Source: a virus. From it: 52,671 bases of DNA. The position numbers were made by a program, and so were the translations under genes. The notes under the pieces were generated by a model. The model did not search any database. It was not told the DNA's origin and saw only the letters and a program-made list of their open reading frames with translations. Shown piece by piece: positions 4,407-52,517 of this stretch (its first letter is position 1; each line of letters begins with the position of its first letter). The DNA lies in the IMG/VR virus record IMGVR_UViG_3300042562_000640, positions 1 to 52,671 of that record; one strand, given 5' to 3'.

Positions 4407-4847
4407 TTAGTTGCACCAACTTTGTTTGGCATCTCCGTAATATTCACGGGCGAATCCGTTTTTAATTAATTCTGCTCTTAGGCTTACACCGTTTAGAATT
4501 AGATCACCTAAAACACGTCCACCGAATTTATCCCAACCATATAACATGACTTGATGTTTTTGTGTGGAATTTATTGCATTTTTGGTAAACACACTAGCAG
4601 CTTCTCCGCGTTGTTTTTCCAAATCGCATTGTCCTCTAAATCCCTTTTCGGGAGTATCTACTCCAAATACTCGAACGGCAATTTCTGGTTTGATGGGTGC
4701 AGGCAAATACGGTGCAGCAATAACTACAGTATCTCCGTCTGTCACTCTTATAATGTTAGCATCATATAATACTCCTTTTGGAGTCTTTTGAGCATAACTT
4801 GTAGATGCACATAATAGAAATGCAAGTGTTAATAATAATTTTTTCAT
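4407..4847 (-). CDS. Secreted thermonuclease-like (SNase family) nuclease
   Basis: The 146-aa protein has a clear Sec signal peptide (MKKLLLTLAFLLCASTSYA) followed by a staphylococcal-nuclease OB-fold domain. The three catalytic positions are visible: Arg59 and Glu67 in VRVFGVDTPEKG, and Arg111 in GGRVLGDL, with calcium-type acidic residues in TDGDTVV. The family is a Ca-dependent phosphodiesterase on DNA or RNA. Export to the periplasm is predicted. The ATG overlaps the gp43 stop (ATGA) and has AAGGAT upstream, so it is co-translated with DNA polymerase. A cytoplasmic start at 4889 would bypass the signal peptide but has no better ribosome-binding site. Confidence 0.85.
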   Translation of the reverse strand: MKKLLLTLAFLLCASTSYAQKTPKGVLYDANIIRVTDGDTVVIAAPYLPAPIKPEIAVRVFGVDTPEKGFRGQCDLEKQRGEAASVFTKNAINSTQKHQVMLYGWDKFGGRVLGDLILNGVSLRAELIKNGFAREYYGDAKQSWCN

Positions 4848-7333
4848 GCGAATAATCCTTCCAATGTTGCTTGTGGCTTTGCAGACCAACCCACACCATT
4901 CAATATTGTTGTTAACGGTTCAAGAAATGATTTCTCAAACATTGTGTCATAATCTACATACTGCTTCAAATTGAACTCTTCAGGAATCACATTGATAAAA
5001 GCAATACAATTTTCTTTAATCAAGTTTGGTTCTTTTAAGTAAATGAATTTGATCTTATCGCCTTCACTTATAAGTTCATACTTTTTATCTATTTGCTTTT
5101 CTTTTAAATAGAAGTTATACAGCAAGGCTCCCCGAACGTGCATTGGAGTAGCTGGTTTATAAATAGATGATCTATCTGTATATTTATCGACTCCATTTAC
5201 ACCTCTAGGGAATGCGATTAATTCTGGTTCTAATTTACGATACTTAGTTTCAAACTCTCGAATGTAATCTTGTAGCTCTTGTTCTGTTCCGGTCAATGCC
5301 AATTTAACTGCCTGCTTCAACGCGTCTCGTACAGGTTCGGGAGTAGATGATCTAACAATCTCCAATCCCATAACCTTTAGCTTTGGTTCCTTATATTGAA
5401 CACCCTCATTGTTATAAACATTTAAAGCATATCGTTTCTTAGCAACCCAAATGCCTCGATCTGCAATAACCTCACGCTTAAAATAAATCTTTGTCTCAAA
5501 GGCATTAGTATATTCTGCAAGCATATCGCATGACTTGTTAATTGCCTTTTCAATCTTCTCATTACAAATCTTATCGAGAATCTCTACGATCTTTTCTTTT
5601 GGTTGATCTTTGTAGAACTTTTGAACCAATGGGTCAAGTGTAATATAACACGCATCTGTATCTGAATAGAATGAATAAATGTGATCTTTTGTGTCACACA
5701 CTTTGTTCAAATACTCATTCAATGCTGCACCCACAGTCTGAATAATATACTGTCCGGTCAACGTAATACCTTCAGCAATATTTGAATCATAGAATCTAAA
5801 AAACTCATTGCCCCATGCACCAAACAAAGAGTTTAATTGAATCTTACGAGCCATCTGAAAGTTGTTATATTTTGCAATCTCTTTTTGCCACTTCTTATCT
5901 TTTGATTCTTCATACTTAGATTGAGCGACCAACATCAACTTCTTATACTTTTGTCGATCGTCAAATAACTTCTGAACAATCTCGGGAAACAATCCTTGCT
6001 TCTCTCTGGTATAGCAAAAGCCATTTGCAGACATACAATAGTTGTTATCTTTTAGATCATCTAGATTGATAGATTGTTTTAACAATGAATTTACATCTGC
6101 ATTTTTTGTTGCTTTTCTAATTTGTGTTTCTGGCGACAAATTATACTGCATAATAATACTAGGATACAGACTTGTTGCATCAAAAGAAACCACCCAATCA
6201 TATTTGCCTGGTCGTGGTTCTTGAACAAATGCCCCGACAATTTGTCTACCGGGCAAACCTTCTCGCTGATGCACAACAATGTTTTGTTTCCACAAATGAT
6301 TCCATAAGATACAGTCCCAAGTTCTTACAGCTGAGAATACATCAACATAATTACATTTCGCATCATATGCCATTGTAAGAATCAATTCAATCAACTTCAT
6401 CTTGTCTTCAAGCTGGTCAACAAGTTCTACGTCAACTACGTTATACTCGACAAACTTTTGCCAATCATTTTTATAGAAGTCTCGGAACGAAGTATATTCG
6501 TCATACGATAATTTCTCTTTGCCAAGTTCTACTTTGGCAATGTGATCCAACTTATATGATTCTTGAGCACTGTAGGTAAACTTCTTATACAGATCAAGAT
6601 AGTCTAGAATGGCTACACCAAGAATATCATAAATAAGTTCTGTGCGACTCATGCGGGTAAATTCTTTTGGATTTACCACACCCCAAGGTGATAGCTTTTT
6701 AACAGCATCATCTCCAAGAATACGTGCCATTCTAGAACACAAATATGGAATATCAAAGAATTCAATGTTCCATCCTGTAAGAATGTTAGGGCAATTCTCT
6801 TGGAAATAAATTAAGAACTTCTGAAATAGATCATACTCATCTCTACATTGAATATAGGTATGATTGTCTTTTGTTACTTTAAATTGTTTCGATCCAAATG
6901 TCACAAGCTCTTTAGTACTTGCATCTTGAATCGTAATCAATAACAATTCTTCTTTTGGATCTCTGACATTGGGGAATCCAAGTTCTGCAGAGGTCTCAAT
7001 ATCAAGAGACCAAATTTTAATCTGCGAAATATCGAATTCTACTTCGTCGGGAAACGTCTTTGTGATATACTGATATGCGTAATTTGTGTTGCCAAAGATG
7101 GGATAATTTTCTACTTCTTTATATCTTTTGACATAATCTTTGGCATCGTTTATATCTGCGAATTCTATTTCTTCAAGATTATCTCCGAATAACGACTTAT
7201 AGTATGATTCTTTCTGTGACTTTGTAAATAAGCTTGGTTTGAATTCGATCTTTTCCTGAACGGTTTTGCCGTTATTTACGCCCCTGACCAGAATACGATT
7301 ACCATACTGATTCACGTTAGTGTAGAACTTCAT
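4844..7333 (-). CDS. 43: DNA polymerase, family B, T4 gp43
   Basis: This is the replicative polymerase with 3'-5' proofreading. Exo I is WSLDIETS (Asp111, Glu113) and Exo II is the GWNIEFFD region. Polymerase motifs A (SFDATSLYPS, Asp385), B (KIQLNSLFG, about 497-504) and C (YSDTD, 556-560) are all intact. I chose ATG 7333 because AAGG lies upstream and T4 gp43 also starts near its first beta strand. The 829 aa is shorter than T4 gp43 (about 900) but usual for marine T4-like phages. The C-terminus TLEGLFA fits the S/T-L-x-x-L/M-F clamp-binding tail known in RB69/T4 polymerase. Confidence 0.97.
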   Translation of the reverse strand: MKFYTNVNQYGNRILVRGVNNGKTVQEKIEFKPSLFTKSQKESYYKSLFGDNLEEIEFADINDAKDYVKRYKEVENYPIFGNTNYAYQYITKTFPDEVEFDISQIKIWSLDIETSAELGFPNVRDPKEELLLITIQDASTKELVTFGSKQFKVTKDNHTYIQCRDEYDLFQKFLIYFQENCPNILTGWNIEFFDIPYLCSRMARILGDDAVKKLSPWGVVNPKEFTRMSRTELIYDILGVAILDYLDLYKKFTYSAQESYKLDHIAKVELGKEKLSYDEYTSFRDFYKNDWQKFVEYNVVDVELVDQLEDKMKLIELILTMAYDAKCNYVDVFSAVRTWDCILWNHLWKQNIVVHQREGLPGRQIVGAFVQEPRPGKYDWVVSFDATSLYPSIIMQYNLSPETQIRKATKNADVNSLLKQSINLDDLKDNNYCMSANGFCYTREKQGLFPEIVQKLFDDRQKYKKLMLVAQSKYEESKDKKWQKEIAKYNNFQMARKIQLNSLFGAWGNEFFRFYDSNIAEGITLTGQYIIQTVGAALNEYLNKVCDTKDHIYSFYSDTDACYITLDPLVQKFYKDQPKEKIVEILDKICNEKIEKAINKSCDMLAEYTNAFETKIYFKREVIADRGIWVAKKRYALNVYNNEGVQYKEPKLKVMGLEIVRSSTPEPVRDALKQAVKLALTGTEQELQDYIREFETKYRKLEPELIAFPRGVNGVDKYTDRSSIYKPATPMHVRGALLYNFYLKEKQIDKKYELISEGDKIKFIYLKEPNLIKENCIAFINVIPEEFNLKQYVDYDTMFEKSFLEPLTTILNGVGWSAKPQATLEGLFA

Positions 7334-7367
7334 TAAAAACCTTTTAGACACAATAAATAATTATATC

Positions 7368-20359: not shown

Positions 20360-20643
20360 GATAGCATCCTTATCAATCCTACCGAATCTATTGTTACCAA
20401 TAACAGGTAGTTAGCCAGCATGCCAAAAGATTTGCGAGTCCAAGCAGCCCAAGCATACATACCACAGCCGACGATCCATATAGGGTAAAGAGAAAGTAAG
20501 GGCGGATTGGGAACTGTGACAGCCATGGTAATTGAACACCCAATACTAATAGCCCAAGCAAGCAACTCAACGCAAAAACGAAAGCGATTAGTAATGTAGT
20601 CATCTTTGATCCAATCAAATGTAGGTTTTAATAAGTCATTCAT
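20356..20643 (-). CDS. Conserved membrane protein between genes 44 and 62 (95 aa)
   Basis: The 95-aa protein has an N-terminal amphipathic segment (FDWIKDDYITNRFRFC) and about three hydrophobic helices, with AWAAWTRKSFGMLANYLLL near the end. Similar small membrane proteins occur in bacteria and marine phages. It overlaps gene 44 and gene 62 by ATGA at each end, so it is translated at a similar level to the clamp loader. It could tether something to the membrane, but that is speculation. Confidence 0.7.
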   Translation of the reverse strand: MNDLLKPTFDWIKDDYITNRFRFCVELLAWAISIGCSITMAVTVPNPPLLSLYPIWIVGCGMYAWAAWTRKSFGMLANYLLLVTIDSVGLIRMLS

Positions 20644-21581
20644 TTAAATTCAACCGATGCCATAATCTCTGTTAAACACGCAACAAGATTAATTTCTTGG
20701 TCTGCACAAAATGCCGCTTTATACTGATAGTCTGCAAGCAACAAAACAAGTTGTGGAACTTGAACAACGGAATCTAATAGGGTATCGTATATTTTTCTAA
20801 AAAGAGTTTGCGGATCGTTATCTAGATTGTTAACAACCCAGGTACGCATCTTTTTCCAATCTTTGTCTTTGAGAGCAGAGATAAGGTCTTGCATATTAAC
20901 CTCACCCATATTAACAAGAATGCCCTCATCAATTTTACCCGAAGATGCATAACGCTGTAACTCATTAAGTACACGACGGTAATCGGGAAAATGTTTCTCA
21001 AGAACTTTTGCTACAACTTTAGGGTCGGCTTCGACCTTTTCGTTTGCCAAGATTTCATTAACACGTTTAAAGAAACGAGCAGCAATCTTAGGACGCTCTT
21101 CTTTACCAATTTTAAATTCGATTACCGCACATCGAGAATGAAGCGGAGGAATAATACGATTTTTAAAATTACAAGTAAAAATAAATCTGCAATTTGCTGA
21201 GAATTCTTCAATGAATGCTCGCAATGCAGGTTGTGTAGAATTAGGGTTTAGATAATCAGCCTCGTCTAGAATAACAACTTTAGTCTTGCCACTAAAGGAT
21301 ACTGTAGATGCGAACTGTTTGATTTTAGTTCTAAGAACATCAATACCAGATTCTTCTGAACCGTTAATGATGATATAGTCTGTACCTAGTTCTTCACACA
21401 ATGCTCGGGCAATAGTAGTCTTGCCCACACCGGCCGAACCACACAATAGCATGTTTTGTATTTCATCTTTTTCAACCATGTCCTGAAAGACCTTCTTTTG
21501 GTCTACAGGTAAAATACATTCATCTAGTTTACGAGGGCGATACTTTTCAACCCACAAAAATTGATCTTCACGAAATTCCAT
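20640..21581 (-). CDS. 44: Clamp-loader large subunit (AAA+), T4 gp44
   Basis: The 313-aa AAA+ ATPase of the clamp loader begins with FLWVEKYRPRKLDECILP, typical of RFC/gp44. Walker A is GSAGVGKT (48-55), Walker B is LDEAD (105-109) and the SRC motif with the arginine finger is HSRC (148-151). It loads gp45 at primer ends with gp62. GGAG precedes the ATG. Confidence 0.96.
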   Translation of the reverse strand: MEFREDQFLWVEKYRPRKLDECILPVDQKKVFQDMVEKDEIQNMLLCGSAGVGKTTIARALCEELGTDYIIINGSEESGIDVLRTKIKQFASTVSFSGKTKVVILDEADYLNPNSTQPALRAFIEEFSANCRFIFTCNFKNRIIPPLHSRCAVIEFKIGKEERPKIAARFFKRVNEILANEKVEADPKVVAKVLEKHFPDYRRVLNELQRYASSGKIDEGILVNMGEVNMQDLISALKDKDWKKMRTWVVNNLDNDPQTLFRKIYDTLLDSVVQVPQLVLLLADYQYKAAFCADQEINLVACLTEIMASVEFK

Positions 21582-22281: not shown

Positions 22282-22282
22282 T

Positions 22283-22939
22283 TTATATTACCGAATCGGG
22301 TTCCATTGCAATAAAATATTCTAATGGCTTTGTAGCGTTTTTAAAGTGGAACAATTTCTTTTTAGCAACTGTTACTGCATAAGCATCGGGAATGATCTTA
22401 AAGTTTTCAACTGCCATATGACATTCAAATGTTGCATCTGATGCTCCGATTGTCTTTTTATAAGTGTTTGCAGTATCATTTTTCTTATCACCAATGGTCA
22501 ATGTAACTTGTCCATTTTTGCTAATAACAGAAATTGTAGGTGCTGCTGTAATTGCGGCTGCCTTCATAATCATGTTAACATCTTCAGATGATAGATTGAA
22601 TTTAAAGTGTTCGTCAATCTCAATGTTCTTATCGGGTGCTGCTACAATAACGCTTGCGTTAGAATAGAAGTATTCAAATTTACCATTGTCTTTAGAGATA
22701 GTCAAAGACTTTTCGCCAAAATCAACTTGCTGATTCTCCATCAATGTTAACAATGCCAACAATGAATTCAAATCATAAACAGGAACTTCTACTGGGAAGT
22801 CTTCGTTAACTGTTACACGCGCAAATATATTCTTTGCTGTGCTGATTGTAGATAACGTCTGACCTTTACGGATCAAGATGTTACTATTAATTGCGGCGAA
22901 GTTCTTTAAGAACTGGATTGTTTCATTACTAAATTGCAT
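22283..22939 (-). CDS. 45: Sliding clamp, T4 gp45
   Basis: The 218-aa protein forms the trimeric ring that keeps gp43 on DNA and also activates late transcription. It begins MQFSNETIQFLKNFAAINSN and has the two-domain clamp pattern with VEVPVYDLNSLLALLTL and a C-terminal FHFKNATKPLEYFIAME. It is the likely partner for the LF-type C-terminal tails noted on gp43, the TGT-like protein and a glycosyltransferase. A promoter lies just upstream. Confidence 0.95.
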   Translation of the reverse strand: MQFSNETIQFLKNFAAINSNILIRKGQTLSTISTAKNIFARVTVNEDFPVEVPVYDLNSLLALLTLMENQQVDFGEKSLTISKDNGKFEYFYSNASVIVAAPDKNIEIDEHFKFNLSSEDVNMIMKAAAITAAPTISVISKNGQVTLTIGDKKNDTANTYKKTIGASDATFECHMAVENFKIIPDAYAVTVAKKKLFHFKNATKPLEYFIAMEPDSVI

Positions 22940-22978
22940 AATATCTCCTAAATTGCAATATCATTTACATAAAAATAT

Positions 22979-23007
22979 ATTATAACACCTATGTGCGTAT
23001 AAGTCTA
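22979..23007 (-). promoter_or_regulatory. Early promoter for gene 45 operon
   Basis: TATAAT with extended -10 TG (AGGTGTTATAAT) and a -35-like TAGACT at 17 bases spacing, about 40 bases upstream of the gp45 start. It sits in the 70-base gap after the glycan operon. Confidence 0.7.
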
Positions 23008-23009
23008 TA

Positions 23010-23885: not shown

Positions 23886-24199
23886 TTATTTACCTTACGT
23901 ATTTCAAAATTATCAGCATTGCCTTCGCCTGTTTCAAGATCATGCACATATAACAACATCAATGCGTAGTGTAAAACCTTTAACAAGTCTTGTCTGTTAC
24001 GACCAGCTTTTTTGCCATATCTTTGGACGTATTTCATTACATTGCCTGCAGTAAATCCTACACCATGCCCATTATCAATAATAAACTCGGATGCTTGGAA
24101 TCTATTCATTGAATAATGTTGTCCATATGTTGCATCAATGTATTCTTGAAACTCTTTAATTAACCCACCCTCATTATATTTGTAGTCTATTTCTGCCAT
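23882..24199 (-). CDS. DUF3310-like protein (105 aa)
   Basis: The pattern HYSMNRFQASEFIIDN, GFTAGNVMKYVQRYGKK, DLLKVLHYALML matches DUF3310, a family including parts of T7 gp1.7 and many phage nucleotide-related proteins. Its biochemical role here is unknown. It is an odd member of a sugar operon, overlapping both neighbours. Confidence 0.75.
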   Translation of the reverse strand: MAEIDYKYNEGGLIKEFQEYIDATYGQHYSMNRFQASEFIIDNGHGVGFTAGNVMKYVQRYGKKAGRNRQDLLKVLHYALMLLYVHDLETGEGNADNFEIRKVNK

Positions 24200-28117: not shown

Positions 28118-28129
28118 AAAATACTCAAT

Positions 28130-30661: not shown

Positions 30662-30662
30662 A

Positions 30663-33620: not shown

Positions 33621-34492
33621 CGTTTTAAAATTTTATTATACACTATAGCATCGAACCAATTAAGGAAGTTATCCAATACTACAAATGACGGAGGGATTCC
33701 GTTTAAAAATTTTGGAGCATTAACATAAGATGCATATAGTTCGTCATCTTGATCAACCTTCATTATATGTGCAATAGCCTCTTCCTGGCTATTGAAATCG
33801 TGTAAATTTATGAATGCGGCAGGATTAAAGTCATTTGCAATTGTTTCGGACCCCCAATAAATTGGAACAGTTCCTGCATAGAATGCGTGAAGAATTTTCT
33901 CCGTAGTATAACCGGGATGAGAAGTATGTTCAAAACAAATATTAAATTTTCTTGTCGAAAGGAAATTTATTTTGCTTTCTTCGCCTGTTAAATTAGCATT
34001 GATGTTGTTATACAATTTGCCGCCGCTATCTACACGTTTAATATTATTTAGCTTATTAAAGAATTCATTGCGCTCATTACAATTTGGATTCGATACTACA
34101 AACGTACAAAAGTCTGTTTTTTCTTTAATCTCGGGATTAAAGATATAGTTAAAATCAAATCTTGTTTCATGGATATGCTCTAATGCCCACATATAAATTA
34201 CATACAAGGGTAATCTGTAATGCCATGGTTCAAATATATGGTCAAAACTAATAGCATAGTCGCAATCAAAATTCTCAGGTCTACGATTTTCACCTGTGAA
34301 CAATATCTTAGTACATTGATCTCTGGTGATATTTAAGTTATTACGACCAAAGTTATCATCACCGAATAATAAAAAATCCGGCGATTCACTCATGCCTACG
34401 ATATCTACTTTATATCTAGTCTGAAAAAGATATATAAAGAACGTTGCAAGATGATCATGTGTATCTGCAAATGCTATTCTCAACGGCTTCAT
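33617..34492 (-). CDS. GT10 family fucosyltransferase-like protein
   Basis: The 291-aa protein has the GT10 signatures: FTGENRRPENFDCDYAISFD (65-84), FCTFVVSNPNCNERNEFF (128-145), and the nucleotide-binding YTTEKILHAFYAGTVPIYWG (195-214). GT10 enzymes transfer L-fucose from GDP-fucose (alpha-1,3/4). The same operon encodes Gmd and Fcl, which make GDP-fucose, and a ColD-like enzyme, so GDP-fucose or GDP-colitose is the likely donor. Acceptor unknown. Confidence 0.9.
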   Translation of the reverse strand: MKPLRIAFADTHDHLATFFIYLFQTRYKVDIVGMSESPDFLLFGDDNFGRNNLNITRDQCTKILFTGENRRPENFDCDYAISFDHIFEPWHYRLPLYVIYMWALEHIHETRFDFNYIFNPEIKEKTDFCTFVVSNPNCNERNEFFNKLNNIKRVDSGGKLYNNINANLTGEESKINFLSTRKFNICFEHTSHPGYTTEKILHAFYAGTVPIYWGSETIANDFNPAAFINLHDFNSQEEAIAHIMKVDQDDELYASYVNAPKFLNGIPPSFVVLDNFLNWFDAIVYNKILKR

Positions 34493-35403
34493 GCAAATGC
34501 CTGATTCAATGCAGACATAATGTTTTCGTGATCTTTAGCAGTCAATGAATTGCTAAAGATTGGGATTGCATGATACGTACATTTGATATTTAAATCTTTT
34601 GACATTGTCTCATGTACATCTTCATAATCTGGATGCTTAGTATTAAATGATACAAATGTTTTTGTGTCATCCATATAATTATCATAAGTCTCGCAGAATA
34701 CATACGGGCCAGAGTTCTTACCAACAATAACATTGCAGTATGTACTTAGATAAGAAATCTCCTGTAGATCTCCATCGGTAACAGGACCTATAATATCGCC
34801 GGTGAATAAAATATTTGTAGCACCCTCAGTATCAAATTTATTAGTGCAGATAAAATGTGTATTGGGATACATTTCTGCAAAGGGCAAAATGTGTTCCTTC
34901 ATATCAGAAGAGAATGACTGATTAGATTGAGGTACATTATTGCAGACTAATACTTTTCGAACACCAATTGTAGAATTAACATATTGATCTACGCCTGCAA
35001 TACTTAAAGCATTGTAGCTGATACGAGGCAAATAATCTTCTTTATCTTTATGTAATTTAACAGAAGTACCGAATGTCTCATTAATTGTATCTACAATGTC
35101 GCCCCATTCTTCGTAGATAGTATTCATATTAATACCACCATACTTACAGAACACATCCCAGTTACATCCAACCCACGTATTAACAAACAAAGTATCTTCA
35201 TCCTGATAGAATGGAGTCTTGTTGTCTAAATCATCAGGCGACCCTATTAAAGGAATGCCCAATTCTGCAGTTAACTTTTCTGCATTTTTATGCAGATATT
35301 CGAATGTAAATTCTGGTAGTTGTGATTGAATGTGACGAATAAATTCTTTATGCGTATGTAGATCACCTTTGTGATAATGATTAAAGAAAACAATTTTAGA
35401 CAT
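34489..35403 (-). CDS. Putative glycosyltransferase, GT-B-like (304 aa)
   Basis: The start is placed at ATG 35403 (MSKIVFFNHYHKGDLHTHKE), 8 bases after AAAGG. HYHKGDL..HKEF resembles the first strand-loop of GT9-like or ADP-heptose-transferase-like enzymes. KVLVCNNVPQSNQSF, FICTNKFDTEG and VGKNSGPYVFCETYDN provide the C-terminal half. No firm family. Next to the DUF4254-like gene, as is usual in LPS clusters. Confidence 0.6.
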   Translation of the reverse strand: MSKIVFFNHYHKGDLHTHKEFIRHIQSQLPEFTFEYLHKNAEKLTAELGIPLIGSPDDLDNKTPFYQDEDTLFVNTWVGCNWDVFCKYGGINMNTIYEEWGDIVDTINETFGTSVKLHKDKEDYLPRISYNALSIAGVDQYVNSTIGVRKVLVCNNVPQSNQSFSSDMKEHILPFAEMYPNTHFICTNKFDTEGATNILFTGDIIGPVTDGDLQEISYLSTYCNVIVGKNSGPYVFCETYDNYMDDTKTFVSFNTKHPDYEDVHETMSKDLNIKCTYHAIPIFSNSLTAKDHENIMSALNQAFA

Positions 35404-35755
35404 TATCAATACCTTTATACAATTTAACAGAATCTTCTCTCAAAGATTTTTCATTTTTAATAGCATCATCAACTAGCAAGTTAATAGCTTGAACATATTT
35501 AGGACGCTTAACCTTGAAGCAAATATCAACTTTGCGTTTTAGATCAGCCATCTCTTCATCTGATTTTGCAGTTTGAAATGCATCTTCAAGCATCCACATT
35601 CTAATATGAATGATAGCAAGTTTCTCAACAATCTCACCAAGATTGTCAGTTGCAATATAATTAGAATCTGGCATACCAAAGTCTTTAGCATTATCTAAAA
35701 CATCGTTAACTGTTCTTTTGATAACTTCCTCAATGCTTTCACCTAAATTGGTCAT
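35396..35755 (-). CDS. DUF4254-like protein (119 aa)
   Basis: The 119-aa helical protein has LGEIVEKLAIIHIRMWMLED and ADLKRKVDICFKVKRPKYVQ, matching the DUF4254 pattern of L...N..LWHLED...D.....LKR.ID..N..RND. DUF4254 genes are found in LPS and capsule clusters beside glycosyltransferases; their role is unknown. Overlaps both neighbours. Confidence 0.7.
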   Translation of the reverse strand: MTNLGESIEEVIKRTVNDVLDNAKDFGMPDSNYIATDNLGEIVEKLAIIHIRMWMLEDAFQTAKSDEEMADLKRKVDICFKVKRPKYVQAINLLVDDAIKNEKSLREDSVKLYKGIDNV

Positions 35756-36908
35756 TGATTTCTCCCACTACTTTATCTAAAAATTTCATGTCTGATTCTG
35801 TAACAAAATGATTGTTACCGATATAAACACCTTGTGTCTGAATAATGTCAGCATTGGTTCTTTTCTTAGTAGTTTCTATTTTATAATCTTTAAGAAAAGG
35901 CTGTGACAATAAATTACCCGCAACAACTGGTCTGTATTCAATTGTATGTTTAGTGAATGTATCCTTCATAGCTAACATGATCTCATTTGATCTGCAGATA
36001 AAAGGAAAACAGAAGCTGCTAATTGTTTTGGGGTTTTTAATAGTATAAAACAGATTGGGATATTTGTCAATAATTTCCGTAAATAGTTTGTGATTTCTAT
36101 TTCGAATCTCAACCATTTTATCCAAACGTTTTAATTGCGAGATACCAAGTACAGCACAAATTTCATGATTTCTAAAATTGTATCCGTCGGTAACAAACAA
36201 GAATTGTTTATCCACATCAGGATATTTTTTAGCATACTCATCGAATTTAATTGATTCTCTTGCCATACCATGGCTTCGTTTAATTTTCATCAAATCATAA
36301 AGCTTAGTATTGTTTGTGGAAATCATTCCACCTTCTACTGTAGACATATGATGTCCAAAATAGAAACTGAATGTGGCGCCTAAACTATTTGAACCACATT
36401 TTTCGCCGTATGGTGTTTTGCAACCATGTGATTCGCAGATATCATCTAATATAATTGCTCTAGGGAAAATGCGTTTAATACCTTCATTGTTTGCGGAAAA
36501 CCCTAACAAATGAGTAATGAATACCATTTTAATATCATGCTTCAATGCAATCAATCTAGCTTCTTCGAGATCAAAACTAAAATTATCTAGATTAACATCA
36601 CAAAATACTGGTTCAAGACCAAGCTGCATAATAGGTGAAACATTCGTCATCCATGTGCAAGCAGGAACTAATACTTTGTCACCCGCTTTTAATTTGTATA
36701 ACTCTTTAACTGCCGCTACCAATAAGAAGTTTGCAGTACTTCCGCTAGAAACATATAAAGAATGTTTTGCGCCAAGCCATTCACTCCATTCGTTTTCGAA
36801 TTGTTTTACCTTTTCACCGAATGTGAATTTCTTAGCTGTCAGCGCAAAATGCGCCATCTTCAATCTGTCCATAAAGGTGATTGTCTCACCCATCAACGGC
36901 CACTTCAT
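35739..36908 (-). CDS. colD: ColD-like GDP-4-keto-6-deoxymannose 3-dehydratase
   Basis: The 389-aa DegT-fold enzyme has His187 in SFYFGHHMSTVEGGM, in place of the PLP lysine, exactly as in E. coli ColD. Other ColD-like features are VPACTWMTNVSPIMQLG and ILDDICESHGCK. ColD uses PLP and glutamate to remove the C-3 hydroxyl of GDP-4-keto-6-deoxymannose in GDP-L-colitose synthesis. The substrate is the product of Gmd, encoded two genes upstream; Fcl/ColC-type reduction would finish the sugar. Confidence 0.88.
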   Translation of the reverse strand: MKWPLMGETITFMDRLKMAHFALTAKKFTFGEKVKQFENEWSEWLGAKHSLYVSSGSTANFLLVAAVKELYKLKAGDKVLVPACTWMTNVSPIMQLGLEPVFCDVNLDNFSFDLEEARLIALKHDIKMVFITHLLGFSANNEGIKRIFPRAIILDDICESHGCKTPYGEKCGSNSLGATFSFYFGHHMSTVEGGMISTNNTKLYDLMKIKRSHGMARESIKFDEYAKKYPDVDKQFLFVTDGYNFRNHEICAVLGISQLKRLDKMVEIRNRNHKLFTEIIDKYPNLFYTIKNPKTISSFCFPFICRSNEIMLAMKDTFTKHTIEYRPVVAGNLLSQPFLKDYKIETTKKRTNADIIQTQGVYIGNNHFVTESDMKFLDKVVGEINDQFR

Positions 36909-37840
36909 AGTATACCTTTTTCTGTTTTATACCAATCAATCGTACGCTTGAGTCCTTCCTCAAACGATACCTTTGGTTTCCATCCCATGGAAAACAATCT
37001 TGAGTTTTCCATTTTGCGTCTAGGTGTACCATTAGGTAGAGTTGTATCCCACTTAATTTCACCCTTGAAACCAACAGCATCTTTAATTAATTCTGAAAGT
37101 TCTTTAATTGGAATTTCAACATCGCTACCTACATTAATAAATTCAGCTTTGTCGTAATTATTCATCAAGAACAAACAAGCATCTGCTAAATCATCTACAT
37201 ATAAAAATTCTCGTGTAGGTGATCCATCTCCCCAGCACATAATACTATCTTCATTGTTCTTCATTGCGTTAAAGAACTTAGTAATGATACCTGGGATAAC
37301 GTGACCTTGCTCAGGAATAAAATTGTCATGAGGCCCATACAAATTTGCAGGCATCAAACTAATAGCGTTGAAACCATATTGACGTCTGTAATATTCGCAC
37401 ATACGCATACCTGTAATTTTAGCTAATGCGTAACCTTCATTAGAAGGTTCTAGTGGCGCTGTTAACAGGTATTCTTCTTTAATAGGTTGAGGGGTGACCT
37501 TAGGATAAATGCAGGCCGAACCCAAGAACAATAATTTACTACAATTGTTTCTATATGCTGCATCAATTACGTTAGTCTGAATAGCAAGGTTATCATAAAT
37601 AAACTCAGCAGGATTAGTTGCGTTATAATTGATACCTCCGACTTTAGCTGCTGCTAAGAAAACATATTCAGGTTTTTCTGTACTAAAGAAATTACGAACT
37701 GCTTGTTGATCTCGTAAATCCAATTCACTTTTAGAACGAAGAATTAGATTATCGTAACCCTCATTCTGAAGTTTACGCACAATAGCAGATCCTACTAAAC
37801 CATTATGACCTGCAATAAAAATTTTACTATTTTTTTCCAT
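36905..37840 (-). CDS. fcl: GDP-L-fucose synthase Fcl (or ColC-like GDP-colitose synthase)
   Basis: ATG 37840 follows GAGGA. The 311-aa extended SDR has IFIAGHNGLVGSAIVR, AAAKVGGINYN, FLGSACIYPK, the catalytic Tyr-x-x-x-Lys in GYALAKITGMR, and MPANLYGPHDNF, all Fcl/WcaG signatures. Fcl epimerises C-3/C-5 and reduces C-4 of GDP-4-keto-6-deoxymannose. ColC is a close relative acting on the 3-deoxy form. Both products are possible given the ColD-like neighbour. Confidence 0.92.
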   Translation of the reverse strand: MEKNSKIFIAGHNGLVGSAIVRKLQNEGYDNLILRSKSELDLRDQQAVRNFFSTEKPEYVFLAAAKVGGINYNATNPAEFIYDNLAIQTNVIDAAYRNNCSKLLFLGSACIYPKVTPQPIKEEYLLTAPLEPSNEGYALAKITGMRMCEYYRRQYGFNAISLMPANLYGPHDNFIPEQGHVIPGIITKFFNAMKNNEDSIMCWGDGSPTREFLYVDDLADACLFLMNNYDKAEFINVGSDVEIPIKELSELIKDAVGFKGEIKWDTTLPNGTPRRKMENSRLFSMGWKPKVSFEEGLKRTIDWYKTEKGIL

Positions 37841-37847
37841 ATTATCC

Positions 37848-38855
37848 TCACTCAAAATTAGTACACATATCTTCAACTAAACTATCGAATGTATGCTCAG
37901 GCTGCCAACCTAACACACTCTTTGCCTTTGATGGATCGCCCAATAAAGTTTCTACTTCTGCAGGGCGGAAGTATTTTTCATCTACTCGAATAATTACTTT
38001 ATTATTGTAATTATTAATACCTACTTCGTTTAGGCCTGCGCCTTCCCAACGAATAGACAAGTGATAGTATGGCGCGCACTTATTAACAAAATCTTTTACC
38101 GAATATTGTTCACCGGTGGCAATAACAAAATCATCAGGTGTGTCTTGTTGCAACATTAACCACATTGCTTTAACATAATCTTTAGCGTGCCCCCAATCAC
38201 GTTTTGCATTTAAATTGCCCATAGATAAACATTCTTGCCGACCTGAACTAATTGCTTCAAGTCCATCTACAATTTTCTTGGTTACAAAATTATGTCCTCG
38301 ACGAGGAGATTCATGATTAAATAAAATACCAGAACAGGCAAACATATTATAAGATTCACGATAATTTTTAACAATCCAAAATCCATATAGTTTAGCTACA
38401 CCATATGGTGAGCGAGGATAAAATGGGGTTGTTTCTTTTTGTGGGATTTCTTGCACCAATCCATATAACTCAGATGTAGATGCCTGATAAATTTTAGTCT
38501 TATGTTCTAAATTTAGTAATCTAACTGATTCAAGAATTTTTAAAGTACCTAATGCATCAACTTGTGCAGTATATTCAGGAGTCTCAAATGAAACTTTAAC
38601 ATGACTTTGTGCAGCCAAATTATAGATTTCATCTGGCTCATACTTTTTAAGTATGTTCATAAGTGACAAAGAGTCAGTTACGTCGCCATAATGTAGTTTT
38701 AAATTTGGGTTATCGTAGATGTGGTCGATGCGACCTGTGTTGATTGACGAACTACGTCTAATAATGCCGTGAACCATATAACCCTTTTCGAGTAATAGTT
38801 CTGCAAGGTACGATCCGTCTTGGCCTGTAATACCAGTAATTAATGCTGTTTTCAT
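37848..38855 (-). CDS. gmd: GDP-mannose 4,6-dehydratase Gmd
   Basis: The 335-aa enzyme converts GDP-mannose to GDP-4-keto-6-deoxymannose. It has [71 protein letters not shown] (Tyr-x-x-x-Lys) and [15 protein letters not shown]. The start at 38855 follows AGGA. It is the first gene of the glycan operon, directly after a late-promoter-like sequence. Confidence 0.95.
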
Positions 38856-38889
38856 TTTCAATTCCTATAATGAATTTATAATATACATT

Positions 38890-46229: not shown

Positions 46230-46712
46230 TTAATTAAATTCGTTGTCTTCTCTATGACCAGAACGGCCTGCCATATTAGAATCAGTCTCGCGAACTTCTA
46301 CTCGGCAGCACCAAACTCTTTTAGCTTCTTCGCTGCCGCAATTTGGCAAAAAGATTGTGTTAATATATTCATATAAGAAGTCAGATAAACCTTCACACCC
46401 TGTACGCTCTACTTCTGTGATCTTAGCTAGTTTTAATCTACCCAATTCCAATAGATGTTCGCGCATTGGATCATCTTGTGCAACTAGCAGAGTGTGGTCA
46501 AACCATTCTTCTAGCTTGTCTTTAAGTGGTCGTAGCCCACCAAAATCAGTTACCCAATTACGAGCATCCAATGTATCTGCTTCAAATTCGAAATGAAAAC
46601 TCATGGCATAACCATGAATCAAATTACAATGTGAATCTGCACGCCATTGCCGATATGCAACCGGACCTATTTGTCTATATGTTTTTGTTGAGAAGAATTT
46701 TTTATTTGCCAT
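46230..46712 (-). CDS. queD: 6-carboxy-tetrahydropterin synthase (QueD) family, phage type
   Basis: The 160-aa T-fold protein has YRQWRADSHCNLIHGYAMSF: the catalytic Cys29 and zinc-type His33 of QueD, but HGY replaces the usual HGH. DFGGLRPLKDKL, FDHTLLVA and VEVRETDSN complete the family pattern. QueD turns dihydroneopterin triphosphate into CPH4 in the 7-deazaguanine pathway. The HGY variant is familiar in phage-type members. FolE, which makes its substrate, is at the right edge of the same operon. Confidence 0.88.
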   Translation of the reverse strand: MANKKFFSTKTYRQIGPVAYRQWRADSHCNLIHGYAMSFHFEFEADTLDARNWVTDFGGLRPLKDKLEEWFDHTLLVAQDDPMREHLLELGRLKLAKITEVERTGCEGLSDFLYEYINTIFLPNCGSEEAKRVWCCRVEVRETDSNMAGRSGHREDNEFN

Positions 46713-46750: not shown

Positions 46751-47773
46751 TTATAAAGCGGGATGAATGTTCGGGTAAGACCGCTGGTTTGTTAAAGCCT
46801 CATATGTTTGAGAATTATACCATGTGTTTAAAGATGATAAAATATCAGACATATCATATACAGGTGTCCAATCTGCAAGACGTTTAAACATTGTACTATC
46901 AGCAACTAACGATGGAGGATCTCCATCGCGTCGTTTATTAATAAATGTTACAATTTCTTTATTGGTAATTTTTTCTACAAGCATTTGAATTTGTAGATTA
47001 GAATGCCCCTGAAGCATCCCTAAATTATATATGCCTTGAATAGAATTGTCAATAGCTTTTATGTGTGCAAGTGCAATATCTTGAACATGAATATAATCTC
47101 TAATACAAGTTCCGTCGGGCGTATCATAGTCTGCACCATTTAAAGTGAATGATGTATTATGTTTGACTGCTTCAAATAGTTTGGCAAAGATATGTGTTGC
47201 ATTTGGTTCTTGCCCATGCTGACCTTTATCGTCAGCTCCGCATGCATTGAAATATCTAAATGCAGTGAAATTTAAGTTGTGGCATCGATGATACCATTCC
47301 AATAAATGTTCAACCATTAATTTAGATTGACCATAAGGAGAAATAGGATCGACCTTATCGTTTTCCCTCAATGGTGTTTTTGTTGTAGGAATGCCGTAAA
47401 CAGATGCGCTACTACTAAAAATAATCTTAGTCTTTGGAATATGTTTAGCAACGAAATCTAAAAGCAAATTTGTTTTAGATACATTGTTGTGAAAGTAATG
47501 TCCTGGATTTTTCATACTAGGACCAACAAGGCTAGTGCCTGCACAATGAATAATTGCTACAGGATAAACCTTTTTATATAGACTAAACGCATCCATGTCT
47601 GTAAAATCACATTGAAGAAACTCATCTTGAAATGCATCAAGATGATCGTTGTGTCTGTTATCAATACCGATAACTTCGTAGCCTTGTTTCTTTAATTCGA
47701 TGCAAGTCTGGCCGCCGATATAACCGGCAGAACCCGTAACAACGACTAATTTAGTACTTGGCTGCTGGGACAT
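46751..47773 (-). CDS. galE: UDP-glucose 4-epimerase GalE
   Basis: The 340-aa SDR has VVVTGSAGYIGGQTCIELKK, HCAGTSLVGPSMKNPGHYFH, FSSSASVYG, catalytic SPYGQSKLMVEH and FRYFNACGAD, then GTCIRDYIHVQDIA, all GalE. It interconverts UDP-glucose and UDP-galactose. The ATG at 47773 overlaps the adjacent glycosyltransferase by 23 bases, implying that it feeds that enzyme. Longer upstream starts run into the neighbour without benefit. Confidence 0.93.
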   Translation of the reverse strand: MSQQPSTKLVVVTGSAGYIGGQTCIELKKQGYEVIGIDNRHNDHLDAFQDEFLQCDFTDMDAFSLYKKVYPVAIIHCAGTSLVGPSMKNPGHYFHNNVSKTNLLLDFVAKHIPKTKIIFSSSASVYGIPTTKTPLRENDKVDPISPYGQSKLMVEHLLEWYHRCHNLNFTAFRYFNACGADDKGQHGQEPNATHIFAKLFEAVKHNTSFTLNGADYDTPDGTCIRDYIHVQDIALAHIKAIDNSIQGIYNLGMLQGHSNLQIQMLVEKITNKEIVTFINKRRDGDPPSLVADSTMFKRLADWTPVYDMSDILSSLNTWYNSQTYEALTNQRSYPNIHPAL

Positions 47774-48920
47774 GATCTCTATAATCCTTACCGCTACGAT
47801 ACCATTTAGCATTATCCTCAAACATAATATCCAAACAACGATCAATAGTACCAGATGTCCAGTCAGACAACTTGCCTAGATTTGCTCGCTCTTGAACCAG
47901 CAATGTATTTAATTTAAATACTGCGTCATCTTGTGACCATGGAATATAAAGACATTCGCGATCATTAGCAAATGATTCTGGGAAAGATCTATAAGCAGGA
48001 TACAAACAATTTGTACCTAATGCATCTGCCTCTGATGCAGTGTTGCTTACCCAATCCTGCAATGCACAATTAAACAATACTCGAGAATCGCCCAACAATT
48101 CATAATACTCATTCTTTTTAAGATTTTCATAGATTTTAAAATTATGAGTCTTTTCCAATGCTCGCGCGCGAGTCAAATACTTTTCGTTATTACTACGCAA
48201 AGGTCCACCCGATAACACAGCAAATTCTACACCCGGGTTAACTGTATGATATCTTTCAATAAGATCCATAAAGAAATCAGGTTGTTTCTCCTGATCAAAT
48301 CTTGCAGCAAATACCACACGTTGTTTACGCTGATTAAATGGAATACGATTTGCTACACGACTACGAACTTCATCTTTATCAAATGCAAGTCCGGAGATAT
48401 TAAAGATTGGCGCTTCCCAACCTGCAATTTTCATATGAGCAACCATTTCTTCGTTAGATGCAAGTACACCTGTAACAAATTGATCTGTCATTTTCTCATA
48501 AAGACCCATCCACTTCTGCATATCCCATACGTGAACAAAATCATCGGGGTCAATAGATTGTGCAAGACAACGAACAAAAATTCTAGGTTGATATTCGTAG
48601 CTTACTTGATCCATAATATAAGGCAGCGCCTCAATACCGGGAGTAAACATATCTTCAAAAAAGATTGTGTCTTCAAATGTTATTTCGCCAGCTTTCATCT
48701 TCTTAATAAGATTAGCCATTTGTGTCAGCGAATAATAACTACGCCCATGTGCATCAAGCACTTGACCGGTAACAATTGCTTTAGAGTCATCTAGAATATC
48801 ACCATGAATTACTTCATAGTCAATACCTCTGCGTTTAAATGCAGCTTCGCTCCATTGTTGCAATTGTAAAGTATAGCGACCTTCATAAGGTTCTAAACCC
48901 ATATAATATAATTTACTCAC
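47751..48920 (-). CDS. GT-B glycosyltransferase (389 aa), modification cluster
   Basis: I use the GTG start at 48920 because AAAGGA lies 6 bases upstream and the result begins SKLYYMGLEPYEGRYT, a start typical of a phage GT-B family. The C-terminal half has VVFAARFDQEKQPDFFMDLI and FNCALQDWVSNTASEADALG, the usual GT4-like donor site pattern. No membrane segment or signal peptide, so cytoplasmic. It is sandwiched between GalE and the TGT-like cluster, which suggests DNA, pterin-derivative or phage-component glycosylation, rather than LPS. That is inference. Confidence 0.8.
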   Translation of the reverse strand: MSKLYYMGLEPYEGRYTLQLQQWSEAAFKRRGIDYEVIHGDILDDSKAIVTGQVLDAHGRSYYSLTQMANLIKKMKAGEITFEDTIFFEDMFTPGIEALPYIMDQVSYEYQPRIFVRCLAQSIDPDDFVHVWDMQKWMGLYEKMTDQFVTGVLASNEEMVAHMKIAGWEAPIFNISGLAFDKDEVRSRVANRIPFNQRKQRVVFAARFDQEKQPDFFMDLIERYHTVNPGVEFAVLSGGPLRSNNEKYLTRARALEKTHNFKIYENLKKNEYYELLGDSRVLFNCALQDWVSNTASEADALGTNCLYPAYRSFPESFANDRECLYIPWSQDDAVFKLNTLLVQERANLGKLSDWTSGTIDRCLDIMFEDNAKWYRSGKDYRDHVPAAKY

Positions 48921-49365
48921 CTGCTATCCTTTCAAAACTAATTCTGCAACCGTTTTCACCATCTTCTGATACTTCAATAGTATAATCCCTATCAGGCCAT
49001 TGTGCCGCACATTTATCATAAAGCTCACATGCCATCATTTCGCATGACTTATAATCTAAATGTAGTGTGCCATCAGAATACCATCGTTCCATAATGCGTT
49101 TTGCCTGAATAAATTCTACATCTCGATCATCATGAAATACTTCCATCTCTACGCGGAAATGAAAAATATGTCTATGCGGTGTTCCTAAGAATGAAACATC
49201 CAGCCAATCGCCTGTTGCTAATTTAGGATCAGTTGCTGCTTGGGGATATTTATGAATACCCTCTTTACGAAAGGTAACCCAAATAGAACTTTTCTTTTTA
49301 ATTAATTTACTGTGTATAATTGTATCTGTAAAAAATACTGGCTCGTTTGAAATAATATCGGTCAT
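48913..49365 (-). CDS. T-fold-like conserved phage protein near DpdA-like gene (150 aa)
   Basis: The 150-aa protein has GTPHRHIFHFRVEMEVFHDD with H-x-H, then VEFIQAKRIMERWY, LDYKSCEMMACELYDK, and VSEDGENG at the C-terminus. The order H-x-H, V-E-F..K, C-E, V-x-E-D looks like a divergent QueD/6-pyruvoyl-tetrahydropterin-type T-fold with changed residues. Such proteins occur beside phage TGT-like genes. It overlaps the TGT-like gene by ATGA and the next glycosyltransferase by 8 bases. Its role is unproven. Confidence 0.55.
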   Translation of the reverse strand: MTDIISNEPVFFTDTIIHSKLIKKKSSIWVTFRKEGIHKYPQAATDPKLATGDWLDVSFLGTPHRHIFHFRVEMEVFHDDRDVEFIQAKRIMERWYSDGTLHLDYKSCEMMACELYDKCAAQWPDRDYTIEVSEDGENGCRISFERIAGE

Positions 49366-50648
49366 GCAAATAAATCCTCAAGTGAAACTGGTGGTTGTGT
49401 GTTAACTGGTTCAGACTCCATATACTTTCCTACATTTCTTTCCCAATCTTCAAAATCAGAAAGATTCTTAACATCAAACAATGTAGCGTATTCATTCTCA
49501 CAGCCTTTTTCTCTACAGAACTTTAAGAACAATTCTTTCGATTCTGTTAAAGCATTGACATCGTGAGTAAAATTATGTACGTTTGTTAAAATAAAAGCAA
49601 GACGTGCTCGCATAATATCAACAAATTTTCCGCCTGCTTCTAAATGAACGCCGACCCCTCGGTTCATTAAGATATGGTATTCTTCAGGAGTATAATTTGT
49701 TCCACATACTGCATTAATTTCTGTAGTAACTGTTCTATAAATGTTAGAATACTCTCTGCCCATTTTTACAGATGTGCCGCCATATGGGGAACCTGCTGCC
49801 TTTTTAGCGAATGAAAAATAAAACAATCCATTATCTAATGACATGGAATGTGTAGTAGAGTCATATGAAATATCAATACCTTCATATAGACCAGATTGAC
49901 TAAAACAAATATAAGGCAGAATGCGACGTAATGCACCTACACCCAATACGTGTAAATGAAATGGTCTAGTATACGGCATCTGTGTAACATAGAATGCTCG
50001 TTTAACGTCTTCTAATTGTCCCATACCCAGAGCAGCCGATCCCATAGCAAGACCACCGATACGATGATGCAATGCCGGAGTAATTTCTTCGAGTACTAAT
50101 TTTGCCCAGCGTGAATATGATTCTTGCGATGAACCCTGCATAATAACAAATGGTCTACATTTGCTACCCATCTTATCGAATGTTTCAATTTGCGATTTTA
50201 CATTCCTGCCCGTTTGTCTTGCATAATCATCAAAATTATCCATGTCTGCATATCTACGCTTAGTATCAATCTTAGATGATACGCCACTTGTAGAAGTTGT
50301 CTTAACAGGAATCTCATCAAACGACATACCAATGTCTGCATATGCACCTTGATTCAAATAAACTTTTTCTCTAACTTCTGGAGTATTTTTTAAACCGCGA
50401 GTAATAATCTGCAAACCTCCAGAGTCAGCATGAATATTATTAATTGAAGCACGAAACTTTTGTAACTTAGGTCCAAAGTTCTTTTCCGTAAATCCATTAT
50501 ACAATAATGAGAATGTGTGGTTGTTTTGTTTATGACATACTTTAGCAATCATGTCAAGCATCATTTCTAATACATCGGGGTCATTACATTGTTCTGCACC
50601 CAGCCGCAAATATGCTGGGCCAGAAATTACGTATTCATATGTTCTCAT
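49362..50648 (-). CDS. TGT/DpdA-like transglycosylase with clamp-binding-type tail
   Basis: The 428-aa protein has TGT-superfamily signatures: NIHADSGGLQI (Asp75), RIGGLAMGSAALG (about 196-208) and YEGIDISYDSTTHS (Asp259, with Asp263 at the expected nucleophile position). The zinc cysteines of tRNA-type TGT are not obvious. DpdA proteins of this superfamily swap guanine in DNA for 7-deazaguanines. The C-terminus is PPVSLEDLFA, matching the gp43 tail LEGLFA. Start and stop are both ATGA-coupled. tRNA rather than DNA as substrate remains possible, but clamp binding would favour DNA. Confidence 0.85.
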   Translation of the reverse strand: MRTYEYVISGPAYLRLGAEQCNDPDVLEMMLDMIAKVCHKQNNHTFSLLYNGFTEKNFGPKLQKFRASINNIHADSGGLQIITRGLKNTPEVREKVYLNQGAYADIGMSFDEIPVKTTSTSGVSSKIDTKRRYADMDNFDDYARQTGRNVKSQIETFDKMGSKCRPFVIMQGSSQESYSRWAKLVLEEITPALHHRIGGLAMGSAALGMGQLEDVKRAFYVTQMPYTRPFHLHVLGVGALRRILPYICFSQSGLYEGIDISYDSTTHSMSLDNGLFYFSFAKKAAGSPYGGTSVKMGREYSNIYRTVTTEINAVCGTNYTPEEYHILMNRGVGVHLEAGGKFVDIMRARLAFILTNVHNFTHDVNALTESKELFLKFCREKGCENEYATLFDVKNLSDFEDWERNVGKYMESEPVNTQPPVSLEDLFA

Positions 50649-52006
50649 GCAAACAGGCTTTCTAATGAAGAAGTGACTTCTTCTTTTGGTATAAAATTAG
50701 GATCTTTAGATAAGTATGTGTCGTTGTCTGTGTAAATTATATTATATTTAGACTTATTTGTCAATATACTTTTGACATCATCTATAGCTAATTGTGATCT
50801 ATTTAGGATTTTAATAAAGTCTGAATATTTGATTTCGGTATAATCATTAATTTTTGCAGAATCAGATCGTGACAAAGATGTTTGAGTGTAACTAGATAAG
50901 AATTTTTTCCATCTATCAGATGTTTGAAAATCCAAATGTTTGATATACTGCAACGCATCATGGTTGCGTTGTTTTCGATCAGCATTATATTCTACTTTTA
51001 ATACTTCGGCAACTTCATTTAACGGTAACCGAATATAATATGCAGGATCAAAATTAGTTACCCATTCAGATTTGTCAATAACAATACAAGGCATATGACC
51101 TAAACATTCAAAAAATGTGAACGGGTAATTTTCTCTTAGTGAAGGGTTAAAGTGAACCTTTGCAGATTTAATAAAGTCAACTTTTTCTTTACCAACAATA
51201 CTAGCTTTAATCTCATAATCGGTAATACCAAGTTCTGCAAGACGAGCTTCAAACTTTTTCTTGCCGTTAGCATTCGTCATAATTTTTGCAGGCAATCCAG
51301 TCTCTTTAATTACTTTTAAAAATGCTTCTGGATTTTTACGATCTTCCCACCGACCAATATATAAGACGCCTTTTCTTTCTGAATAATCACTTGTGAGCAA
51401 TTCTCTTTCAGACATAGGCATACTTAAATGTTCTACATCAACTCCGCCATTATTTTTAATTTCAGTTACATTACGTGCAGATTGTGTGCCAATATAACAA
51501 CTTTCAAGATTCATTAAGTTGTTAAAAAATTCATTACAACTTTCTAAGAATACGCCTTTGAATTTTCTAGTATCACGGAACACCATACTCTCTTCATGCG
51601 TGTAAAATACTACAGGAATGTAACTATTAAGATCAAAACTCAATACTGCGGGCATAGCCTCTAAAGAATTACATACTACCATATCATAGATATTAGTATG
51701 AAAAGCATTCATAACAGCATCACGGAAATTAATCATCTTTTCAAAGTTAATTGAATCAGTAAATGCAAAAGTACCGGTATGATTTTTATATGACAAGGCA
51801 TTTTTCGGAGCAATTAAATTTGCGCCCAATGATTCAACTAATTTTGCAAACTCATTTGTTGTGGGTTTGTCCGTAATAATATCAACCTTCCAGTCAATTT
51901 TATTTGCCATTTCAACAAATCCCTTTGCAAATTGTCCAATCCCACCATGCGGAACAAGGTGTTGATCGCTAATGCAAAACGCAACTCTCTTTTTATAAAG
52001 ACGCAT
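50645..52006 (-). CDS. GT-B glycosyltransferase with clamp-binding-type tail (453 aa)
   Basis: Start at ATG 52006, preceded by GGTGAG. RVAFCISDQHLVPHGGIGQF matches the donor/acceptor Gly-rich loop of GT4-type enzymes; GVLYIGRWEDRKNPEAFLKV and NPSLRENYPFTFFECLGHMP give the C-terminal E-x7-E-like site. The C-terminal 90 residues are extra and end VTSSLESLFA, the same type of tail as gp43 and the TGT-like protein. No signal or membrane helix. I infer a DNA-directed glycosyltransferase at the replication clamp, comparable to T4 alpha-glucosyltransferase, which is also reported to contact gp45. Confidence 0.8.
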   Translation of the reverse strand: MRLYKKRVAFCISDQHLVPHGGIGQFAKGFVEMANKIDWKVDIITDKPTTNEFAKLVESLGANLIAPKNALSYKNHTGTFAFTDSINFEKMINFRDAVMNAFHTNIYDMVVCNSLEAMPAVLSFDLNSYIPVVFYTHEESMVFRDTRKFKGVFLESCNEFFNNLMNLESCYIGTQSARNVTEIKNNGGVDVEHLSMPMSERELLTSDYSERKGVLYIGRWEDRKNPEAFLKVIKETGLPAKIMTNANGKKKFEARLAELGITDYEIKASIVGKEKVDFIKSAKVHFNPSLRENYPFTFFECLGHMPCIVIDKSEWVTNFDPAYYIRLPLNEVAEVLKVEYNADRKQRNHDALQYIKHLDFQTSDRWKKFLSSYTQTSLSRSDSAKINDYTEIKYSDFIKILNRSQLAIDDVKSILTNKSKYNIIYTDNDTYLSKDPNFIPKEEVTSSLESLFA

Positions 52007-52007
52007 A

Positions 52008-52517
52008 TTACTCACCAAGAATTTTAATTAAGTGTTTTGTTTGATGCATCGCATCATCTAAGGCATTATGATACGTACCTTCGCGTTTGTCTTCTGGAAT
52101 CCAATTGAACATTGCTTTAGCAGTTCGGTAACAACGATCATCCCAGCATTTCCAAGGTGGTTCTCTGCCTGTAATGAAGTATGCATTACCTAAAATTGTG
52201 TTATCAAATACAGCACCGTTTCCCCAAATAGGTAAACTCTTAGGGCCAAACCATAACTCAAATTTATCCAATGCTTCTTGCAATGATATATTATTCTTTG
52301 TTAATTCTCGCAAGGCTTCTTTATTTTGTTTAGACCACCATGCAACGGTATCTTTAGAAATATGCATTCCAGCTTCTTTACAGCTAGCAAGATCAATGGT
52401 GCAATAAAATGTATCTACAATTTTACTACCTTCAAATTTTACTGCACCAATTGAACAAATTGCTGCGTGTGATCTTGTTGACATTGTTTCCAAGTCAACC
52501 ATTACATTAATTGTCAT
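52008..52517 (-). CDS. DnaQ-type 3'-5' exonuclease (DexA/Rv2179c-like)
   Basis: The 169-aa nuclease has the DEDD motif set: MVDLETMST (Asp8, Glu10), a [12 protein letters not shown] middle motif and a C-terminal [11 protein letters not shown]. It resembles T4 DexA-like and Rv2179c-type exonucleases. It lies between FolE and the glycosyltransferase, with ATGA coupling to folE and a start-stop near contact to the next gene. Its role in a modification operon could be nucleotide recycling or fork processing. Confidence 0.85.

Follow-up and report, generated by a model that had tools for sequence, protein, structure and literature searches.

Candidate clamp-interacting tails on a DpdA2-family enzyme and an adjacent glycosyltransferase suggest clamp-tethered 7-deazaguanine DNA hypermodification in a T4-like virus

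In phage T4, the clamp-interacting peptide (CIP) of the gp43 polymerase, 892-SLDFLF-897, occupies a hydrophobic pocket between gp45 domains as seen by cryo-electron microscopy (PMC12746103), and the C terminus of gp55 also binds gp45 (PMC7892883). Protein YP_008125322 of Vibrio phage nt-1 was named DpdA2 by Hutinet et al. 2019 (PMC6884629). Both the association of DpdA2 with 7-deazaguanine DNA and the binding of gp45 by T4 alpha-glucosyltransferase (alpha-GT) are already known. Here, we analyze IMG/VR record IMGVR_UViG_3300042562_000640, a 52.7-kb viral contig (the window, 52,671 nucleotides in full), in which a DpdA2-family TGT-like enzyme and the adjacent GT-B glycosyltransferase (GT) end in the same kind of tail as the gp43 polymerase of the same virus. 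The same pairing recurs in many distantly related phages, and the virus is likely to modify its DNA just after the replication machinery has passed.

The tails and the enzymes that carry them

The three C-terminal tails (ATLEGLFA in gp43, VSLEDLFA in DpdA2, and SSLESLFA in the GT) are all present as described in an earlier note on this DNA, and they share the pattern of the T4 CIP. The end of T4 gp55, SLDFLYEAND, holds the similar motif SLDFLY. The note had also claimed that the tails are encoded differently, and the codon sets are indeed distinct: GCA ACA TTG GAA GGA TTA TTC GCA in gp43, GTT TCA CTT GAG GAT TTA TTT GCA in DpdA2, and TCT TCA TTA GAA AGC CTG TTT GCA in the GT. The final Ala (GCA) of DpdA2 and of the GT falls within an ATGA overlap with the start of the next gene, for which reason this residue is weak evidence and the information lies in L..LF and the Ser/acidic residues alone. 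In the structural models the tail includes a short helix, at residues 423-427 of DpdA2, where the final residues are the least certain part, and at residues 452-456 of the GT, also with low confidence. Both enzymes carry a C-terminal SLxxLF-type peptide behind a flexible linker, in a phage that encodes the cognate gp45. On sequence grounds, the final 7-8 residues of DpdA2 and the GT are best read as gp43-type CIPs that would bind gp45. The clamp-tail interpretation originally put forward is supported by the match to the T4 CIP and gp55, by conservation in most DpdA2 homologues at ~30-45% identity, by the parallel changes in gp43 described below, and by the lack of a tail on the small-molecule enzymes encoded in these clusters.

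The assignment of the TGT-like protein as a TGT/DpdA-like enzyme is likewise supported, both by its fold and by its sequence similarity to DpdA2 of nt-1. Both proteins belong to phrog_10773 and are 36.5% identical over residues 5-273 (E 6e-37), and TIGR00449 (tgt_general) matches the window protein at E 6e-7, under the curated cut-off. Its AlphaFold model (pLDDT 91.7) matched murine and human TGT and the DNA preQ0 insertase DpdA (7ui4); all five Foldseek matches with E < 1e-4 were TGTs or DpdA. The relation was seen by this fold search, a PDB sequence search with the DpdA2 profile having returned chance matches only. Pfam TGT (PF01702) is blind to the DpdA2 family, and its silence is uninformative on DpdA2. 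Residues D75 (DSGGLQ) and D263 (YDST), invariant in 30 divergent DpdA2 proteins, are the presumed catalytic aspartates, assigned by motif rather than by structure-based residue alignment.

The model of the GT (pLDDT 87) gave Foldseek matches to the GT-B enzymes WlaC, sucrose-phosphate synthase (SPS), MshA, and BshA. Residues E296 and E304, in EX7E spacing, are invariant in 16 proteins. The GT is classed as a GT-B enzyme of the retaining GT4 type. The ATG at position 52006, previously proposed as the start of this gene, was judged the likely one.

Conservation and distribution of the tail

The strict motif [ST]Lxx[LIMF]Fx0-2$ was sought at the ends of all open reading frames (ORFs) 60 aa or longer in the window, Synechococcus phage BUCT-ZZ01, ACP17, X1, Ps15, and the near-complete relatives G023 (222 kb) and G024 (202 kb). 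It was found in gp43, in the TGT-like protein, and in the GT where that protein is tailed, apart from an unrelated 1467-aa G023 protein and some ORFs that were set aside because they overlap longer ones. Five of 3815 other distinct ORF tails carried it, four of them on proteins from the dpdA2 neighborhood: a 300-aa protein immediately upstream of dpdA2 (two copies), a nearby 340-aa homologue of that protein, and an ArcS-like protein of nt-1.

Positions -6 (L), -3 (L), and -2 (F) never change across 53 distinct window-type DpdA2s and 54 GTs, even as their codons differ synonymously; E at -5 is present in 53/53 DpdA2s and 53/54 GTs, and the linker before the tail varies freely. This pattern shows that the tail is under selection; the conservation of TGT-like and GT-B C termini is what the earlier note had proposed to examine. 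At greater distances, an LxxLF-type tail was present in 23 of 30 DpdA2 clusters (IMG/VR, 70% identity), several others having a shortened form, and L423 and F427 were at least 90% conserved in the 30 divergent DpdA2 proteins. The strict motif was absent from all distinct sequences of FolE (158), QueE (159), QueD (124), the second glycosyltransferase GT2 (75), GalE (81), the small protein encoded next to DpdA2 (128), gp46 (89), and gp47 (94). Since the precursor-making enzymes never carry it, the tail marks enzymes predicted to act on DNA.

The same kind of tail is found on other proteins encoded close to dpdA2. In DpdA2 contigs without the GT-B enzyme (L113-L115, L117, L142), an unrelated 300-aa protein that overlaps the dpdA2 start ends in SSLESLFL; a homologue with 34% identity (L327:6782-7804, compared with L113:9096-9998) ends in PSLEDLFS. 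This family had no convincing Pfam, PHROG, or PDB match, but its DND motif and the annotation of distant phage relatives make it a putative glycosyltransferase. In nt-1, the ArcS-like protein (NF040592 E 2e-7, under cut-off) ends in NSLANFF, and gp43 ends in TLESFFG.

The form of the tail also tends to follow that of the polymerase. An FF gp43 tends to accompany an FF DpdA2 tail, and LF accompanies LF (FF versus LF, gp43 against DpdA2, 5,1;0,13; Fisher p = 5e-4, uncorrected for shared ancestry). The GTs fall into two groups: those of group 1 have one residue after LF (54/56), like their own gp43 (GLFA), and those of group 2, which are cyanophage-like, have three (38/39), again like their own gp43 (DLFSFG). 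In contig L393, where gp43 ends in NTVDDLFG, DpdA2 in STVDSLFD, and the GT in STCEDIFS, V replaces the first L in both gp43 and DpdA2.

Some further C termini and loci were recorded. A 247-aa protein ending in VDFFTG/VDMFVG was considered as a tail bearer and rejected as a head-tail adaptor. A 230-260-aa protein with a recurrent GLxxFF C terminus occurs at G023:129246-129938, G024:74428-75120, BUCT-ZZ01:7844-8554, and X1:84546-85328. A scan of bacterial genomes yielded two dpdA2 loci only, in an Anaerolineae bin (L419) and a Nitrosarchaeum bin (L420). Because each bin holds a gp43-like polymerase, these are probably viral contigs, L420 possibly from an archaeal virus; the FF tail of the polymerase matches that of DpdA2.

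Proposed mechanism and alternatives

Overall, we consider it likely that gp45 serves as a tether for those enzymes of a 7-deazaguanine hypermodification pathway that work at the DNA level. The tails of DpdA2 and the GT would dock in the hydrophobic pocket of the phage gp45 trimer, and gp45 staying on the DNA behind the replisome would hold both enzymes to newly made DNA. There, DpdA2 would replace guanine with a 7-deazaguanine base and the GT would add a sugar, with GalE interconverting UDP-glucose/galactose as a possible sugar-donor supply. In this scheme we infer gp45 binding, DNA as the substrate, the identity of the base, and the placement of the sugar on that base. The 7-deazaguanine genes linked to dpdA2 are those for QueD and FolE in the window and for FolE, QueD, and QueE in relatives. 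As the GT-bearing records searched yielded no QueC, the inserted base may be 7-carboxy-7-deazaguanine or a derivative, or the host may supply QueC.

We lean slightly toward a broader proposal in which the CIP is a portable recruitment module that T4-like phages place on DNA-acting 7-deazaguanine enzymes (DpdA2, the GT-B enzyme, the unrelated putative glycosyltransferase, and the ArcS-like protein), coupling base exchange and glycosylation to replication and yielding an undescribed glycosylated 7-deazaguanine base. If true, modifying enzymes riding the replication clamp could be how a phage modifies its DNA fast enough to escape restriction, and the base itself would be of a new modified kind. 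The six-residue C-terminal signature would also be a route to finding unknown phage DNA-modifying enzymes; it has already picked out the putative glycosyltransferase and the ArcS-like protein.

Several observations weigh against clamp tethering. In a tree built without the tails, the tail is spread over the DpdA2 family, with a supported tail-less group formed by KVP40, nt-1, and pf16. Tail-less homologues had been named in advance as evidence that would count against the proposal; the tail is kept in most DpdA2s, whereas KVP40 and nt-1 DpdA2 lack it and that of pf16 is degenerate. In several DpdA2 clusters the tail is shortened (SLPEDF, SLELEF, NILDL), with uncertain binding, the GT of X1 has no tail, and in L321 the gp43 tail (PPQSFF) mismatches that of DpdA2 (SLDDLFD). 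The lack of correction for shared ancestry bears on the gp43 co-variation as a whole. Finally, group-2 phages encode a tailed GT together with folE/queD/queE, and DpdA2 was searched for in them and not found, nor was Pfam TGT found in their loci. The GT may hence act without DpdA2, or another insertion route may exist, and the reactions may differ in order and partners from the scheme above. The group-2 loci (L190, others among L170-L222) also encode a NagB-like protein, nucleotidyltransferases, and an epimerase.

These group-2 phages lend some substance to an alternative that we regard as unlikely though worth weighing, namely that the tails bind gp45 while the GT glycosylates another DNA base or a protein, the recruiting device alone being in common. 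The GT4 fold is silent on the acceptor. However, the GT neighbors dpdA2 or folE/queD/queE in both GT groups, and in loci lacking the GT-B enzyme the tail is found on a different putative glycosyltransferase next to dpdA2. The GT-bearing records searched gave no PF00303 (ThyA/dCMP hydroxymethylase) protein, making hydroxymethylcytosine an unlikely acceptor.

It is very improbable that the tail brings proteins to gp45 for other ends, such as competing with gp43/gp55 in the switch from replication to late transcription, with modification being secondary. gp55 does engage gp45 through a peptide of this type (PMC7892883), but DpdA2 and the GT keep catalytic folds with invariant motif residues, and the tail follows predicted enzyme type, the nt-1 ArcS-like protein included. 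Slimmer still is the chance that the TGT-like enzyme modifies tRNA rather than DNA and that its tail is incidental: tRNA TGTs have the same fold, yet dPreQ0 is present in the DNA of nt-1, a phage with a dpdA2 gene (PMC6884629), and a clamp tail would be expected to be useful on DNA only. Coincidental hydrophobic C termini, or a tail copied between genes by recombination, might be suspected from the shortness of the motif, the adjacency of two of the three genes, and a final Ala partly forced by the ATGA overlap, but for the DpdA2 and GT tails this idea is refuted with near certainty by a rate of ~1/3815 outside the dpdA2 neighborhood, by differing codons and linkers, and by conservation over synonymous changes and down to ~30% identity.

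Gene context and comparison with described systems

Besides the features in Table 1, the T4-like replication genes of the window include those for UvsX, a DnaB-type helicase, and gp46/gp47. The right end is occupied, on the minus strand, by the 7-deazaguanine cluster, which encodes FolE, an exonuclease, the GT-B enzyme, the TGT-like enzyme, the phrog_17812 protein, GT2, GalE, and QueD. A cassette for nucleotide sugars and glycans lies beside the gp45/gp44 genes (positions 21610-38861, minus strand), with GDP-mannose 4,6-dehydratase, epimerases, two aminotransferases, a GT10 fucosyltransferase, a GT2-family glycosyltransferase, and a TPP enzyme fragment. The gp43 gene is adjoined on the opposite strand by one for an RCC1-type (regulator of chromosome condensation) repeat protein (positions 7481-8599, plus strand).

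Table 1. Features of the window relevant to the clamp and the 7-deazaguanine cluster
Feature	Position	Strand	Basis or remark
gp43 family-B DNA polymerase	4844..7351	-	PF00136, phrog_262
Candidate gp43 C-terminal clamp-interacting peptide, ATLEGLFA	4847..4870	-	Position same as T4 gp43 SLDFLFG
gp44 clamp-loader subunit	20640..21581	-	phrog_168 E 1e-121; PF21328
gp45 sliding clamp, 218 aa, predicted receptor of the tails	22283..22939	-	phrog_223 E 8e-63; PF09116 above cut-off
QueD-like enzyme (7-deazaguanine pathway), no tail	46230..46712	-	phrog_2389, PF01242
GalE, UDP-glucose 4-epimerase, no tail	46751..47845	-	TIGR01179 above curated cut-off; tail in 0/81 homologues
GT2, second GT-B-like glycosyltransferase, no clamp tail	47751..48920	-	PF00534 weak; tail in 0/75 homologues
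Small conserved protein, no tail; start overlaps dpdA2 stop (ATGA)	48913..49365	-	phrog_17812
DpdA2-family TGT-fold enzyme, 428 aa, predicted DNA guanine transglycosylase	49362..50648	-	phrog_10773 E 3e-99
Candidate DpdA2 C-terminal clamp-interacting peptide, VSLEDLFA	49365..49388	-	L,E,L,F core unchanged across 53 distinct relatives despite synonymous codon differences
GT-B/GT4-type glycosyltransferase, 453-457 aa, likely ATG start 52006	50645..52018	-	PF00534/PF13692 weak; model and Foldseek
Candidate GT C-terminal clamp-interacting peptide, SSLESLFA	50648..50671	-	Sequence pattern, conservation
FolE (GTP cyclohydrolase I), 3' end, gene cut by contig end	52514..52669	-	C-terminal stretch same as L190 FolE

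No publication joining DpdA or the 7-deazaguanine pathway with a sliding clamp was found in the literature searched, in keeping with the view of the earlier note that a clamp-tethered TGT/DpdA paired with a glycosyltransferase had not been described. Bacterial and phage DpdA (7ui4; phages 9g and CAjan) is, like DpdA2, a TGT-fold DNA insertase for 7-deazaguanine bases, but it belongs to a different subfamily, for which the literature searched describes no clamp tail.

T4 alpha-GT is a DNA-glycosylating enzyme that binds gp45 (Sommer 2004, as cited in PMC13216743), as is proposed for the GT. In contrast to the window GT, it acts on hydroxymethylcytosine and has no transglycosylase partner. As a precedent it holds only in part. 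A 2026 study confirmed the alpha-GT/gp45 contact by pull-down (PMC13216743), but no SLxxLF was found in the alpha-GT sequence, which ends in FKEQFDIITK, and the share of alpha-glucose was traced mainly to how strongly the enzyme is expressed rather than to clamp binding (PMC13216743).

The clamp-binding peptides of T4 gp43, gp55, and gp33 resemble the window tails in being short C-terminal peptides behind a flexible linker; they dock in gp45, as the window tails would. The T4 proteins that carry them, however, serve as polymerase or in late transcription and do not modify bases. The nt-1 DpdA2 (PMC6884629), for its part, shares phrog_10773 with the window enzyme, is ~36% identical to it over the N-terminal two thirds, and is likewise encoded beside 7-deazaguanine biosynthesis genes. 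Unlike the window enzyme, DpdA2 of nt-1 and KVP40 has no clamp tail, and in the nt-1 cluster it is the ArcS-like protein that is tailed instead. Compared with nt-1, the window lineage, in whose near-complete relatives QueC was not found, adds a tailed GT and GalE.

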